Shown here: piece after piece, positions 27,907 to 34,764 of the stretch
Position numbering within the stretch: the stretch's first letter is position 1
Layout: every line of letters starts with the position of its first letter
Source: Leisingera aquaemixtae
GTDB taxonomy: Bacteria > Pseudomonadota > Alphaproteobacteria > Rhodobacterales > Rhodobacteraceae
Direction of reading: 5' to 3'
DNA: 64,000 nt
NCBI RefSeq assembly: GCF_019801145.1
Contig: NZ_JAHVJQ010000006.1
Coordinates: forward strand, 124,001 to 188,000
Position numbers and translations under genes: made by a program
The notes under the pieces: model-generated
The model's database searches: none
The model's input: only the letters and a program-made list of their open reading frames with translations
Told to the model about the DNA's origin: nothing

Positions 27907-29301
27907 TCAGGCCGCTTCGGTGCACTCGGCTGACAGGGTGACCTGATTGCGGCCCGCGTTCTTGGCATTGTAGAGCGCCTGGTCGGCTTTCTCGACCAGC
28001 GCGGAGGCGCTGCTGTCCTTGCCTGCCCCGCCCATCACCGCGCCGATGCTGATGGTGACCTTGACCGGCTCTGCGGCGCCGGGCACCTGGAACGGCGTGC
28101 CGTTGATGGCGTTGCACAGGGCGATCGCGGTCAGGCCTGCCTCTGCCTCGGTGGCGCCCGGCAGGACGGCCATGAATTCCTCGCCGCCGACACGTGCCAG
28201 CAGGTCCGCAGGCCGCAGCACCGCCTGCATCCGGCGGGCGGCCTCCACCAGCACGGCGTCGCCTGCAGGGTGGCCATAGAGATCGTTGATCCGCTTGAAA
28301 TGGTCGAGATCGGCAACCATGACCGCGAATTTCTCGCCGGTTTCCGCCGCCGAATGCGCCACCCGGTCCAGGAAGGGCCTGGCATAGCGGCGGTTGTAGA
28401 GGCCTGTCATCGGGTCCAGCACTGCCGCGCGCAGCCCGTTGCGGACGCTGTCGCGGAGCCGGTCCTTGCGAATCTTGTGCTGCAGCTGGCTGTTCAGGCG
28501 CAGCTCCAGCTCCTCGACATCGAAACCGGTCTGCAGCACGTCATGGGCGCCGCGGTCCAGCGCTTCGGCCGCGATGTTGGGGTCGGCCGGGTTGGGCACG
28601 GCAATCACCACCGATTTGCGGGTGGCGGCGCGGGCGCGCAGATCCGCCAGCAGGCGCAGGCCGGGGCCTGCGGAGGCCTCGTTCAGCTCTATGATGATGG
28701 CATCGGCCACCGGCGCCTGCATCAGGCCCTGAATGTCGCTGATGGCGTGGGTGCGAAGCGCATAGGGCAGGCTGGACGAGAGACGGTCGCGCCAGGCCAT
28801 GGCAGTGCGCGGATCGTCTGCCACCAGCGCAACGGTGGCATTGCGCAGATCCTCGGTGCAGGCGCGGTCGCTGAGCGGCAGGATAAAGCCGTGCGAGGCG
28901 TCGCGCTGCAGGTTCAGCTCTTCGTTGGCGCTGCGGGCGCGCAGGAGGCTGCGGATGCGGGCCTGCAGGATCACGTCGTCCACCGGCTGCTGCAGCACAT
29001 CGTCAATGCCCGCGGCCAGCGCCTGCAGCCGGGCCTTGTGCCCCTCCCAGTCGGAGACCGCGATCACCGGCAGGTCGGCCAGCGCCTCATCCCCTGCCAG
29101 CGCGCGCTTGACGTCGGCGGCGGTGCCGTCGGGCAGAGACATCGCGGTGAGCACCAGATCGGGACGGCAGCTGCGCGCGGCCTGCAGCACCTCTGCCACG
29201 CTGCCGGCCTGGACCGCATCGTAATAGGCAGCCGCGAGCTGCACCTTCAGCATGATGCGGTTGGTGGAGACGCCGTCGATGACCAGGATAGTGCCTTGCA
29301 C
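27907..29301 (-). CDS. pleD: PleD-like diguanylate cyclase with degenerate receiver domains
   Basis: 464 residues: receiver-like domain 1 (residues 1-120), receiver-like domain 2 (about 150-290) and a GGDEF domain (about 310-455). The cyclase site is intact (RVGGEEF) and an RxxD inhibitory site (RPAD) precedes it, so it should make cyclic-di-GMP and be product-inhibited. Domain 1 lacks the phosphorylation machinery: the acidic pair is D9-G10 (usually DD), the acceptor is A53 in LVLTAMSLPDG, and the Lys-Pro is Q105-P106. The GTG at 29301, with AAAGGA upstream, gives a family-like start. It is adjacent to DUF3572, a usual neighbour of pleD. Confidence 0.85.
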   Translation of the reverse strand: MQGTILVIDGVSTNRIMLKVQLAAAYYDAVQAGSVAEVLQAARSCRPDLVLTAMSLPDGTAADVKRALAGDEALADLPVIAVSDWEGHKARLQALAAGIDDVLQQPVDDVILQARIRSLLRARSANEELNLQRDASHGFILPLSDRACTEDLRNATVALVADDPRTAMAWRDRLSSSLPYALRTHAISDIQGLMQAPVADAIIIELNEASAGPGLRLLADLRARAATRKSVVIAVPNPADPNIAAEALDRGAHDVLQTGFDVEELELRLNSQLQHKIRKDRLRDSVRNGLRAAVLDPMTGLYNRRYARPFLDRVAHSAAETGEKFAVMVADLDHFKRINDLYGHPAGDAVLVEAARRMQAVLRPADLLARVGGEEFMAVLPGATEAEAGLTAIALCNAINGTPFQVPGAAEPVKVTISIGAVMGGAGKDSSASALVEKADQALYNAKNAGRNQVTLSAECTEAA

Positions 29302-29417
29302 GCGGTATCCTTTCGCCCCTTGCAAATCCTATGGCTTACAGTTTTTGCTGAGACTGGTTAAAAAACCCTTTCGGATTTTTACTAAATTGGCCGCAATGCG
29401 GCAGGAAAGTGGGGAAC

Positions 29418-30537: not shown

Positions 30538-30697
30538 GTGCGGCATACTGGGCATAAGTGTACAGAAATCGGCTGTCCCGGCGCTTGATGCAGGAAAAAC
30601 GACAGCGGGGGTCGGGAACTGACAGGTTCAGGCAGGCGGGATTGGCACAGTGGTTGACGATCAGCACTTAGGAAACGCGGACCCAGGGGAGGGCGGC

Positions 30698-32257
30698 ATG
30701 GCAGACACAGGCGCACGAAAACGGCGGGGCGGGGGCAGGGCAGGCGCGGCGGCCCGGCGCGGCAGCGCGGTGCTGGAGCAGATGCCCTGGCAGATCCCGG
30801 TCAACATCGACCGCCCGACGGAACCCCTGAGCGAAGAGGGCATTCAGGCGATCCACGAGGGCGCGATGCGCATCCTGGAAGAGATCGGCGTGGTGTTCCT
30901 GAACCCCGAGGCGCTGGAGATCTTCAAACAGGCCGGCGTCAAGGTCGAGGGCGAGCTGGTCAGGATGGACCGCGATTTCGTCATGGAAATGGTGGGCAAG
31001 GCGCCGCGCGAATTCTCGATCACCCCGCGCAACCCGGACCGGACCATTCCGCTCGGCGGCAACCACATCCTGTTCGGCAACGTGTCCTCGCCGCCGAATT
31101 ACTGGGACATGGAGCTGAACAAGAAAGTGGCGGGCAACCGCGAGCAGTGCCGCAACCTTTTGAAGCTGACGCAGTATTTCAACTGCATCCACTTTGCCGG
31201 CGGCTACCCGGTGGAGCCGGTGGACATCCACGCCTCGGTCCGCCACCTGGATGTGCTCTATGACAAGCTGACGCTGACCGACAAGGCGATGCACGCCTAT
31301 TCCCTGGGCAAGGAGCGGGTCGAGGATGTAATGGAGATGGTGCGGATTGCCGGCGGGCTCAGCGATGAGGCGTTCGAGGCCAAGCCGCATATGTACACCA
31401 ACATCAACTCGACCTCGCCCCTGAAGCACGACTTCCCGATGATCGACGGCTGCCTGCGGCTGGCGCGGCGCGGGCAGGCGATTGTGGTGTCGCCCTTTAC
31501 CCTGGCCGGTGCAATGGCGCCGGTGACCATGGCGGGCGCGGTGGCACAGTCGATTGCCGAAAGTCTTTGCGCAATTGCGCTGTTCCAGTACGTGCGCCCC
31601 GGCACCCCCTGCGTGATCGGCACCTTCACCTCCAACGTCGACATGAAATCCGGAGCGCCGGCCTTCGGCACGCCGGAATACATGCGCTCGACCCAGATGA
31701 CCGGGCAGATGGCGCGGTTCTACGGGCTGCCGATGCGCTCCTCCGGGGTCTGCGCTGCAAACGTGCCGGACGGGCAGGCGGTCTGGGAAACCTCGAACTC
31801 GCTGTGGGCGGCGGTGCAGTCGGGCACCAACATGGTTTACCACGCAGCCGGCTGGCTGGAGGGGGGGCTGATCGCCTCTCCTGAGAAATTCATCATGGAC
31901 TGCGAGATCCTGCAGCAGATCGAACGCTACATGCAGCCCGAGATCTCTGCGACCGGCCCGGAGGAAATTGCCTTGGACGCGATCCGGGAGGTTGGCAACG
32001 ACGGCCATTTCTTTGGCATCCAGCACACCCAGGACCGCTATGCCACCGCCTTTTATCAGCCGTTCCTGAGCGACTGGCGCAACTACGAGGCCTGGGAGCA
32101 GGCTGGCGCCACCTGGACCGCGGAGCGCGCGCACAAGATGTTCAAGGAGATCATCGGCTCCTTCGAGGCGCCGCCAATGGATGCGGGCATCCGTGACGAA
32201 CTGGCGGATTTTGTCGCCCGCCGGAAAGCAGAAGGCGGCGCCCCCACTGATTTCTGA
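30698..32257 (+). CDS. MttB-family (non-pyrrolysine) methylamine methyltransferase
   Basis: 519 residues. COG5598 members that lack pyrrolysine demethylate quaternary amines such as glycine betaine, carnitine-related compounds or proline betaine, passing the methyl group to a corrinoid protein. The barrel landmarks include MRILEEIGVVFLNPEAL, FTLAGAMAPVTMAGAVAQS and GLPMRSSGVCAANVPDG. There is no in-frame TAG, so no pyrrolysine. An N-terminal Arg/Gly/Ala-rich tail of about 24 residues looks disordered. No corrinoid protein or methyltransferase partner is adjacent, so the acceptor is unknown. GGGGAGG precedes the ATG; a terminator follows. Confidence 0.87.
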   Translation: MADTGARKRRGGGRAGAAARRGSAVLEQMPWQIPVNIDRPTEPLSEEGIQAIHEGAMRILEEIGVVFLNPEALEIFKQAGVKVEGELVRMDRDFVMEMVGKAPREFSITPRNPDRTIPLGGNHILFGNVSSPPNYWDMELNKKVAGNREQCRNLLKLTQYFNCIHFAGGYPVEPVDIHASVRHLDVLYDKLTLTDKAMHAYSLGKERVEDVMEMVRIAGGLSDEAFEAKPHMYTNINSTSPLKHDFPMIDGCLRLARRGQAIVVSPFTLAGAMAPVTMAGAVAQSIAESLCAIALFQYVRPGTPCVIGTFTSNVDMKSGAPAFGTPEYMRSTQMTGQMARFYGLPMRSSGVCAANVPDGQAVWETSNSLWAAVQSGTNMVYHAAGWLEGGLIASPEKFIMDCEILQQIERYMQPEISATGPEEIALDAIREVGNDGHFFGIQHTQDRYATAFYQPFLSDWRNYEAWEQAGATWTAERAHKMFKEIIGSFEAPPMDAGIRDELADFVARRKAEGGAPTDF

Positions 32258-32302: not shown

Positions 32303-32655
32303 GTATCCGGGGCTGGCGGGTGACCGGGCGCCGCCGGATTGCGGCCGGTGCATGCCGCGGGCTTGCCTCTGCGGCCGTGACGGGCCACTAGGGGGCAACG
32401 GCGGCCGGAGTGGCAGTGATCTGCGGGCCGCGGGCCGGGACAAGGTTCGCCAGAAGTAAGTGGCCAGGGAGCTGGTTGCCATATTATGATCGCATTGCGC
32501 ACGGGGCCGGTTGCGGACGCTGGGGGTGCAGAATTCGTGCTAAGGTTAAGTAAGGCGGCGGAATTGCTCGCTAATATTTCTGCAAATTTGCTTTGTTGTG
32601 CCTTTCTTAACCTGCAGGCGTCAAAACTGCTGCGTAGGCAAAGAGGGGCCATTGC
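32303..32655. other. Intergenic region upstream of the H-NOX gene
   Basis: 353 bases without a supportable gene. The first half is GC-rich; the second half (32500-32655) is AT-richer, which suits a promoter, and the H-NOX start at 32656 has only a weak GAGGGGCC ribosome-binding site. I see no repeat, tRNA or operator I can name. Confidence 0.5.
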
Positions 32656-33243
32656 ATGCACGGTCTGATCAACAGGGCGATTCAGGCATTTGTGACGAGT
32701 ACTTACGGCGCAGACCGCTGGGAGGAGGTCATGGAGGAGGCGGGACTCGGATTCTCCGAGTTCGAAGCCATGCTGTTTTACACCGAGGAGCAGTCGGGCC
32801 AGATGCTGGCCGCGATGGAGAAGGTTCTGGCGCGCCCCTTGCCGGAGATGCTGGAGGATATGGGCACGTTTCTGGTGTCAAATCCCCAGGTGGAGGCGCT
32901 GCGCAGGCTGCTGCGCTTTGGCGGCGTCAATTATGTCGAGTTCCTGCATTCCCTGGATGACCTGCCGGACCGGGCCCGGCTGGCAGTGTCGGATTTGCAC
33001 CTGCCGGCGCTGGAACTTCTGGAGCAGGCGCCCGACCAGTTCGAGCTGGTCTGCCAGCCGGGCCTGCCCGGCTATGCTCATGTCCTGATGGGTGTTCTCC
33101 GGGCCATGGCCGACGACTACGGGGATCTTGTATTTCTGGATCACCGGGGCACGCAGGACGATGCCGAGGTGATCTCGATCACGCTTGTGGAAACGAAATT
33201 TGCCGCAGGCCGCGAGTTTGATTTAGGGGCGCATTCGTTATGA
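32656..33243 (+). CDS. H-NOX family protein lacking canonical haem ligands
   Basis: 195 residues, full-length H-NOX (HNOB) domain: MHGLINRAIQAFVTSTYGAD aligns with the N-terminus of soluble guanylate cyclase beta1. The sequence around FLHSLDDLPDRARL aligns without gaps to the sGC segment FLQNLDALHDHLAT; the proximal haem His is replaced by P104. The YxSxR haem-carboxylate motif aligns to C133-Q-P135-G-L137. Both haem determinants are thus lost, while the fold-forming residues are kept. H98 lies six residues from the normal ligand. The gene overlaps a diguanylate cyclase that has the HNOBA-like partner domain, so a signal-transducing role persists, but NO/O2 binding as known is doubtful. Confidence 0.85.
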   Translation: MHGLINRAIQAFVTSTYGADRWEEVMEEAGLGFSEFEAMLFYTEEQSGQMLAAMEKVLARPLPEMLEDMGTFLVSNPQVEALRRLLRFGGVNYVEFLHSLDDLPDRARLAVSDLHLPALELLEQAPDQFELVCQPGLPGYAHVLMGVLRAMADDYGDLVFLDHRGTQDDAEVISITLVETKFAAGREFDLGAHSL

Positions 33244-34259
33244 TGACACTCCAGCAGCTGACCGGGATGGCGGGCGTGATTTGTCCGATGTACGCCATTG
33301 TTGACGGCAAGGGCCGCATCGTGTCCGCCGGGCCGACGCTGAAGAAGCTCCGGCCGCAGCTGGATTGGGAAGGGCGGCGGTTCTTCCGGGTGTTCGACCT
33401 GTCCCGGCCGCGGTCGGTGCGCTCGGTGGAGGATCTGCTGCGCACCTCGGGCAGCAAGCTGCATCTGCAATTCCGCGACGCTCCCCAGACGGGCCTCAAA
33501 GGAGTGTGCACGCCGCTGCCCGAAGGGCAGGGCGCGTTCATCAATCTGTCCTTTGGCATCTCCGTGCTGGAGGCGGTGAGGGACTATGACCTGACCAGCG
33601 CCGATTTTTCGCCCACGGACCTGACCATCGAAATGCTCTATCTGGTGGAGGCGAAATCCGCCGCAATGGAGGCCTCGCGCCAGCTGAACCTGCGCCTGCA
33701 GGGCGCCAAGATCGCCGCTGAGGAGCAGGCCTTTACCGACACCCTGACGGGGCTGAAGAACCGCCGGGCGATGGACCATGTGCTGGGGCGTCTGATCAGC
33801 AGCGGCCGCGAATTTGCGCTGATGCACCTGGATCTGGATTTTTTCAAGCAGGTCAATGACACCCTGGGCCATGCGGCTGGCGATGCGGTGCTGCAGCACG
33901 CTGCCAGAGTAATGGTGGAGTGCACCCGCCAGTCGGACACGGTTGCGCGGGTCGGCGGCGACGAGTTCGTCATGATTCTCGAAGGGGTGCTGGACACCGG
34001 CAGGCTTGCGGCGATCGCCAAGCGGCTGATTCAGCGCCTGGAGGAGCCGGTTCCCTTTGGCGGCCGGACCTGCCGGATTTCCGCCAGCGCCGGCACCACG
34101 CTGTCCACATGGCAGCAAAACCCGGACGCCCAGCAGCTGCTGAACCAGGCGGATCTGGCGCTTTATGCCGCCAAGCGCGCCGGCCGGGCGCAGCATTGCT
34201 TCTACCGCGAAGGCATGGAGAAGGCGGACGGCAAGGCGGATACGCCTGCAGCATCTTAA
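33240..34259 (+). CDS. HNOBA-GGDEF diguanylate cyclase, partner of the H-NOX protein
   Basis: 339 residues. Residues 1 to about 115 form a PAS-like HNOBA domain (VICPMYAIVDGKGRIVSAGP, then LSFGISVLEAVRDY), the element that mediates coupling to H-NOX in guanylate cyclases. A helical linker (about 130-165) leads to a GGDEF domain with RVGGDEF at residues 237-243 and an RxxD inhibitory site (RQSD 230-233). It should make cyclic-di-GMP. The ATG lies in an ATGA overlap with the H-NOX stop. The pairing is like H-NOX-associated cyclases described in other bacteria, but here with an unusual H-NOX. Confidence 0.88.
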   Translation: MMTLQQLTGMAGVICPMYAIVDGKGRIVSAGPTLKKLRPQLDWEGRRFFRVFDLSRPRSVRSVEDLLRTSGSKLHLQFRDAPQTGLKGVCTPLPEGQGAFINLSFGISVLEAVRDYDLTSADFSPTDLTIEMLYLVEAKSAAMEASRQLNLRLQGAKIAAEEQAFTDTLTGLKNRRAMDHVLGRLISSGREFALMHLDLDFFKQVNDTLGHAAGDAVLQHAARVMVECTRQSDTVARVGGDEFVMILEGVLDTGRLAAIAKRLIQRLEEPVPFGGRTCRISASAGTTLSTWQQNPDAQQLLNQADLALYAAKRAGRAQHCFYREGMEKADGKADTPAAS

Positions 34260-34445: not shown

Positions 34446-34520
34446 TGGCAGCCCGTAGGGGAATCGAACCCCTCTTTCCAGGTTGAAAACCTGGCGTCCT
34501 AACCGATAGACGAACGGGCC
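34446..34520 (-). tRNA. tRNA-Glu (anticodon TTC)
   Basis: 75 nt with CCA encoded. The acceptor GGCCCGT pairs with ACGGGCT, the anticodon loop is in CAGGTTTTCAACCTG, and the T arm is GGGGTTCGATTCCCC. Identical to the copy at 34690-34764. Confidence 0.95.
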
Positions 34521-34689: not shown

Positions 34690-34764
34690 TGGCAGCCCGT
34701 AGGGGAATCGAACCCCTCTTTCCAGGTTGAAAACCTGGCGTCCTAACCGATAGACGAACGGGCC
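34690..34764 (-). tRNA. tRNA-Glu (anticodon TTC), second copy
   Basis: Identical to the copy at 34446-34520, with its own promoter and terminator. CCA is encoded. Confidence 0.95.

Follow-up and report, generated by a model that had tools for sequence, protein, structure and literature searches.

Absence of the known haem ligands from an H-NOX protein co-encoded with a GGDEF cyclase in Leisingera aquaemixtae and in most of the relatives read

The described systems closest to the locus reported here are the H-NOX/cyclase pairs of Paracoccus denitrificans and Dinoroseobacter shibae. A missing His is not new in this setting: according to the available text of Kumar & Spiro 2017 (PMC5588039), the axial His is missing from the H-NOX proteins of both P. 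denitrificans and R. sphaeroides. The same text describes an hnoX mutant that makes no BapA, is partially deficient in biofilm formation and consumes NO faster. Its authors suggested that in the presence of NO DgcA is inhibited by H-NOX, and that NO has a second, H-NOX-independent route of action; biofilm in hnoX mutants was still stimulated by NirS-derived NO, and in their model NO acts through the His-less P. denitrificans protein (PMC5588039). When measurement of c-di-GMP was attempted in this species the level was below detection, as stated in the available part of PMC12582929, and inhibition of DgcA is thus unproven. The accessible sections of PMC8846402 and PMC7232146 list the D. shibae H-NOX as a haem-based NO sensor and an inhibitor of Dgc1, and the latter source places it under the CtrA phosphorelay. 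In V. cholerae, H-NOX without haem reacts to oxidation by way of several Cys and zinc, and the homologues presented in the accessible portion of that paper all keep the His (PMC7108781). In the open-licence literature we found neither a study of any Leisingera member nor a published family-wide census of haem-ligand loss.

The H-NOX/GGDEF locus of Leisingera aquaemixtae

We analysed a stretch of 64,000 nucleotides from Leisingera aquaemixtae (assembly GCF_019801145.1, contig NZ_JAHVJQ010000006.1, positions 124,001 to 188,000), hereafter the window. The features that concern us, in window positions, are the following.

32597..32626, forward strand: upstream motif common to the family (consensus T.GG..tTTnTTAA), its end 29 bases ahead of the H-NOX start codon
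32656..33243, forward strand: H-NOX (HNOB) protein of 195 aa that lacks the known haem ligands (PF07700 E 1.1e-21; Alr2278 alignment; AlphaFold model)
32965..32967, forward strand: codon 104, ccg (Pro), at the proximal haem His position (sequence and alignment)
33052..33066, forward strand: codons 133-137, C-Q-P-G-L where YxSxR would stand (sequence and alignment)
33240..33243, forward strand: ATGA overlap of the cyclase start with the H-NOX stop (sequence)
33240..34259, forward strand: diguanylate cyclase of 339 aa, predicted from an HNOBA/PAS-like N-terminal domain, a long helix and a GGDEF domain (PF00990 E 2.1e-43)

Both reading frames and their overlap had been described in an earlier note on this DNA, and both exist. 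The 195-residue protein matches the PF07700 HNOB profile with 77.9 bits against a cut-off of 25.5, and its gene is the only HNOB gene in the genome. Nostoc Alr2278 aligns with it without gaps across the ligand region: LDDLPDRAR lies under LDNLHARVG, which puts P104 at the proximal His, and VCQPGL lies under HYQSTR, which puts C133, P135 and L137 at the Tyr, Ser and Arg of the propionate motif. The earlier note had placed the same four residues from a gap-free alignment with sGC beta1; the placements agree with ours, and the gap-free alignment holds residue by residue with Alr2278, the sGC beta1 chains being recovered as matches only (best E 2.2e-10). Assignments to the pocket other than those at 104, 133, 135 and 137 are our assumption.

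An AlphaFold2 model (119 family sequences as input; pLDDT 90.9, pTM 0.85) displays the H-NOX fold, and among solved structures it is closest to Nostoc H-NOX, with sGC beta1 next. Foldseek against canonical H-NOX structures returned a probability of 1.00 and a TM score by query of up to 0.82. By sequence and by PDB fold matches the protein belongs to the HNOB fold family. It does not carry the residues of haem-based H-NOX gas sensors, insofar that the modelled helix 93-110 passes through a Pro at the place of the proximal His and that YxSxR is replaced at all three of its fixed positions. Nor does it hold the zinc-binding Cys cluster of redox H-NOX of the V. cholerae type, as there is a single Cys in the protein.

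The overlapping gene encodes a predicted diguanylate cyclase with GGDEF at 239 and the RxxD I-site (RQSD) at 230. Its model (pLDDT 95.2) leads from the N-terminal domain through a long helix (residues 128-164) to the GGDEF domain, and the top PDB match is a PAS-GGDEF-EAL protein. The HNOBA match of the window cyclase is slightly below the cut-off (22.0 versus 23.4 bits); 61 of 77 cyclase relatives match HNOBA at E<=0.01, the best at 2.1e-9. An HNOBA-like GGDEF gene directly after or overlapping the H-NOX gene is the arrangement of the Rhodobacteraceae H-NOX/GGDEF operon, and it is found here.

Upstream, on the same strand, lies a gene of the trimethylamine methyltransferase family (MTTB; 30650-32257, +) with no in-frame stop. 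A second GGDEF protein, PleD-like with two receiver-domain matches, is encoded 3.3 kb from the H-NOX operon (27907-29325, -), and a pair of tRNA-Glu(ttc) genes sits close together downstream of the cyclase (34446-34520 and 34690-34764, -).

The upstream motif recurs in the family at a median of 28 bases before the H-NOX start, and 193 of the 204 upstream stretches of 160 bases contain TTAA, compared with 31% of stretches shuffled base by base. The CtrA consensus is TTAA-N7-TTAA. The whole 64-kb window has two one-mismatch sites for it, neither of them near the gene, and 1 of 204 family upstream stretches has a site. The motif may be a CtrA half-site or a promoter element.

Haem-ligand positions and operon structure in the family

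All 21 of the 21 Leisingera genomes searched carry the H-NOX gene (89-100% identity to the window protein), and the named loci nearest to it are mostly Leisingera. Matches were obtained in 288 of 394 family genomes and in 9 of 367 genomes of a class-wide sample, five of these within the family and the other four weak (24-28% identity). Our census comprises 206 distinct family sequences after removal of identical rows and of L001, a duplicate locus, with two sequences from Leisingera and two from one genome (G265); family members outside the 206 are less like the two queries, and their frequencies may therefore differ from the counts given here.

Position 104 (n=206): Pro 157, His 17, Arg 7, Gln 5, Ala 4, Ser 4, Asn 3, Gly 3, Thr 2; Glu, Tyr, Asp and Lys one each
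Position 133 (n=206): Cys 125, Val 44, Leu 11, Ile 9, Tyr 0
Position 137 (n=206): Arg 12
Y.S.R at any place in the protein: 1 of 206
R87, G90, P117 and G146: invariant, 206 of 206
Position 104, the 80 named loci closest to the window protein (motif match): Pro 62, Ser 13, Ala 2; Thr, Asp and Asn one each; His 0
Genus, 18 distinct sequences: P104 in 17, Ser in the remaining one; C133 in 18

The earlier note had proposed that homologues be collected and conservation of these residues read from them; P104 proved widely conserved, and C133 less so, with Val, Leu or Ile in its place in 64 of the 206. As aligned, not one of the 206 sequences retains the motif's Tyr, and loss of the His is the rule, with exceptions. 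On the same alignment, ligand loss is not peculiar to this genome and is common to most of the relatives read. The canonical comparison set, 30 H-NOX of the family picked because they scored highest against HNOB, has His104, Tyr133 and Ser135 in 30 of 30. The window H-NOX is 35-89% identical to the 205 other members of the census and 12-25% to these 30, and the operon-type H-NOX form a sequence group separate from the canonical ones.

Two further positions deserve mention. His2 is present in 197 of 206 relatives, where the canonical H-NOX read mostly have Lys and some have Tyr; we take position 2 to be the propionate edge of the pocket, and an anionic ligand might be contacted by His2. Trp135 accompanies a residue other than Pro at 104 in 20 of 49 sequences, versus 7 of 157 Pro rows. 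Relatedness may be the cause of this association, or it reflects, perhaps, a contact in the altered pocket.

A GGDEF cyclase gene lies next to H-NOX at 203 of 206 family loci, a count that is uninformative on the frequency of motif loss because only open reading frames with GG[DE]EF were accepted (all 203 read GGDEF). The three loci without one (L105, L152 and L190) are on contigs that stop 139, 111 and 718 bases past the H-NOX frame. The -4 offset seen in the window is shared by 134 of the 203, and the I-site RxxD is present in 198 of 201 family cyclases.

Within Leisingera the selection on H-NOX is strongly purifying: comparison of the window gene with 20 genus relatives gives a dN/dS of 0.034 (dN 0.035; dS 1.0, near saturation), the ratio across all 210 genus pairs is 0.044, and that of the cyclase in the genus is 0.071. 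The central claim of the earlier note, an H-NOX fold that lacks the known haem ligands beside an HNOBA-like GGDEF cyclase, is upheld, and the pair is under selection.

What the altered H-NOX may do

We consider it rather probable that this H-NOX is a haem-independent regulatory subunit of the co-encoded diguanylate cyclase, acting by contact and most likely as an inhibitor, and that its input is something other than haem/NO chemistry at residue 104. The fold, the missing ligands, the conservation of the operon and purifying selection are observations, as is the occurrence of this state in most of the relatives read; from there we infer physical contact, the sign of the effect and the absence of haem. 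According to our hypothesis the two proteins would be made together from one overlapping operon, and H-NOX would touch the cyclase, probably at the HNOBA-like domain, with inhibition as the most likely outcome. Since there would be little point in producing an enzyme along with a subunit that inhibits it all the time, the likeliest input would be a partner protein, or a ligand other than haem that occupies the old cavity. The P. denitrificans phenotype indicates that a His-less H-NOX does something, and its sign fits inhibition of the cyclase.

An unlikely alternative is that haem is still bound in the hydrophobic cavity, ligated by H2, water or an exogenous base, and that NO is sensed as reported for D. 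shibae. Locus L081, which we take to be the D. shibae H-NOX (Dshi_2815), has H104, C133, W135 and R137, and appears from these residues to be one of the few His-keepers. As this protein lacks the Tyr and the Ser of the motif and is nonetheless listed as an NO-responsive haem sensor in the accessible text, the lack of those two residues does not exclude haem. Moreover, structure 2kil of a Shewanella H-NOX with the H103G change is titled Fe(II)CO, from which it follows that loss of the His alone need not abolish haem, and H2 is at hand in 197 of 206 sequences. The alternative is nevertheless at odds with the census, in which Tyr133 is found in 0 of 206 sequences, Y.S.R in one, and position 104 varies among Pro, Arg, Gln, Ala, Ser, Asn, Gly, Thr and others besides His. 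H98, which the earlier note had put forward as a replacement ligand, is no commoner where His104 is missing (129 of 189, and 12 of 17 where it is kept). We also rejected H98 as a haem ligand on a helical-wheel estimate, by which it would sit about 120 degrees round helix 93-110 from residue 104.

The genomes that keep His104 were compared with the others. Dissimilatory nitrite reductase (called by Cytochrom_D1 above 300 bits or NirK above its cut-off) is encoded in 9 of 17 His104 genomes versus 35 of 115 without (p 0.096), the latter sample consisting of 43 hand-picked genomes, sisters included, and 72 more, obtained by taking alternate genomes from the 144 that were left. By a hand count, a further H-NOX scoring like the canonical ones is present in 0 of 17 His-keepers versus 28 of 189 others (p 0.14). 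Neither trend is significant, and as weak trends they would point to NO sensing kept in a minority. His104 may be associated with S8 (Fisher 3e-7) and with W135 (Fisher 4e-5), the independent pairs on supported branches being few (at least three).

Somewhat less likely again, in our judgement, is that H-NOX, devoid of haem, senses nothing and serves the cyclase as a structural or assembly subunit, with residue 104 free to drift. Site 104 took 45 steps, about the average rate of the protein (median 50), with 2-10 changes at each of the same-helix sites 96, 97, 99, 100, 103 and 106, and 12 bootstrap trees gave 9-15 His-state changes. The sGC alpha subunit, moreover, carries a haem-less H-NOX. 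Free drift would not be expected to leave Pro in as many as 157 of 206 sequences, however, and the His state carries phylogenetic signal. On the H-NOX + cyclase tree (516 columns, the four sites excluded) there are 11 His/non-His changes versus a shuffle mean of 16.5, and 0 of 300 shuffles had 11 or fewer, which speaks against His104 being scattered by chance. One H-NOX-only tree gave 17 changes versus a mean of 17.5 in 200 shuffles, and a second gave 14. We place most trust in the H-NOX + cyclase tree because it has the most columns, though it should be read with some caution, support of 0.9 being reached at only 76 of its 198 nodes. On the full tree loss-only is 8.3 log units better than gain-only, and across the 12 bootstraps this difference spans -5.4 to +10.3; repeated loss from a His ancestor is thus favoured on the full tree and not on every bootstrap, and the spread leaves regain of the His possible, for which a single base (CCN to CAN) could suffice.

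That the protein is a cysteine or redox sensor working through C133 is improbable. Its appeal lies in C133 itself, found in 125 of 206 sequences and 18 of 18 distinct genus sequences, and in the oxidation-responsive, haem-free V. cholerae H-NOX (PMC7108781, accessible portion). That protein uses several Cys and zinc, however, whereas with the single Cys of the window H-NOX a disulfide within the protein is impossible, and we rejected a disulfide or zinc switch. Redox-state sensing via a thiol, raised in the earlier note, is further disfavoured by the absence of any Cys from 17 of 206 sequences and by the 64 with Val, Leu or Ile at 133. An artefact of misalignment or a decaying gene is scarcely credible beside the gap-free alignment, the confident model, the PDB match, a gene present in 21 of 21 genus genomes and a dN/dS of 0.034, on which we rejected a pseudogene.

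The preferred reading, in which H-NOX regulates the cyclase independently of haem, can be widened, more tentatively, to much of the family. An NO-sensor/cyclase pair would have been turned into a haem-free signalling module, the propionate motif having been lost in the common ancestor and the haem ligand changed some ten times, mostly by loss, with operon and fold kept and another ligand taken into the cavity; the NO response of D. shibae would then be the exception.

Comparison with described H-NOX systems

What matters here is the family-wide pattern and its clash with annotation, the kind itself having already been remarked on in print. The literature on the family, in its accessible parts, treats H-NOX as an NO sensor, and does so for P. 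denitrificans as well, with the absence of the His noted. Set against this usual annotation, our census finds most members without the known haem ligands, and the member listed with NO has the uncommon His. Two claims that are usually merged, that H-NOX regulates the cyclase and that H-NOX senses NO, can now be separated, and His/Pro orthologue pairs occur naturally, so that the two may be compared directly.

The window H-NOX shares its fold with Nostoc Alr2278 and sGC beta1, but their haem-ligand and propionate-motif residues are replaced in it. If our reading is true, the family would hold bacterial counterparts of the haem-less H-NOX carried by sGC alpha. Locus L196, presumably the R. sphaeroides H-NOX, has P104, C133, S135 and L137. 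The P. denitrificans pair H-NOX/DgcA (Pden_3719/3720) is of the same family and gene order as that of the window, with Pro104 in both and 35% identity between the H-NOX proteins. The H-NOX from another strain of that species (L352) has P104, A133, S135 and Q137; there the downstream gene, of which the start was read, overlaps H-NOX, and it carries a GGDEF annotation in the P. ferrooxidans record. A partner of the same type, a cyclase, accompanies the H-NOX of S. woodyi and of L. pneumophila, according to the available sections of PMC8846402. The V. cholerae H-NOX can act haem-free, according to the accessible portion of PMC7108781, but its Cys/zinc site is absent from the window protein. The D. 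shibae pair H-NOX/Dgc1 has the same operon as the window, at 46% identity; unlike the window H-NOX, the D. shibae protein has kept His104 and Arg137 and is listed, in the sources cited above, with haem and NO.
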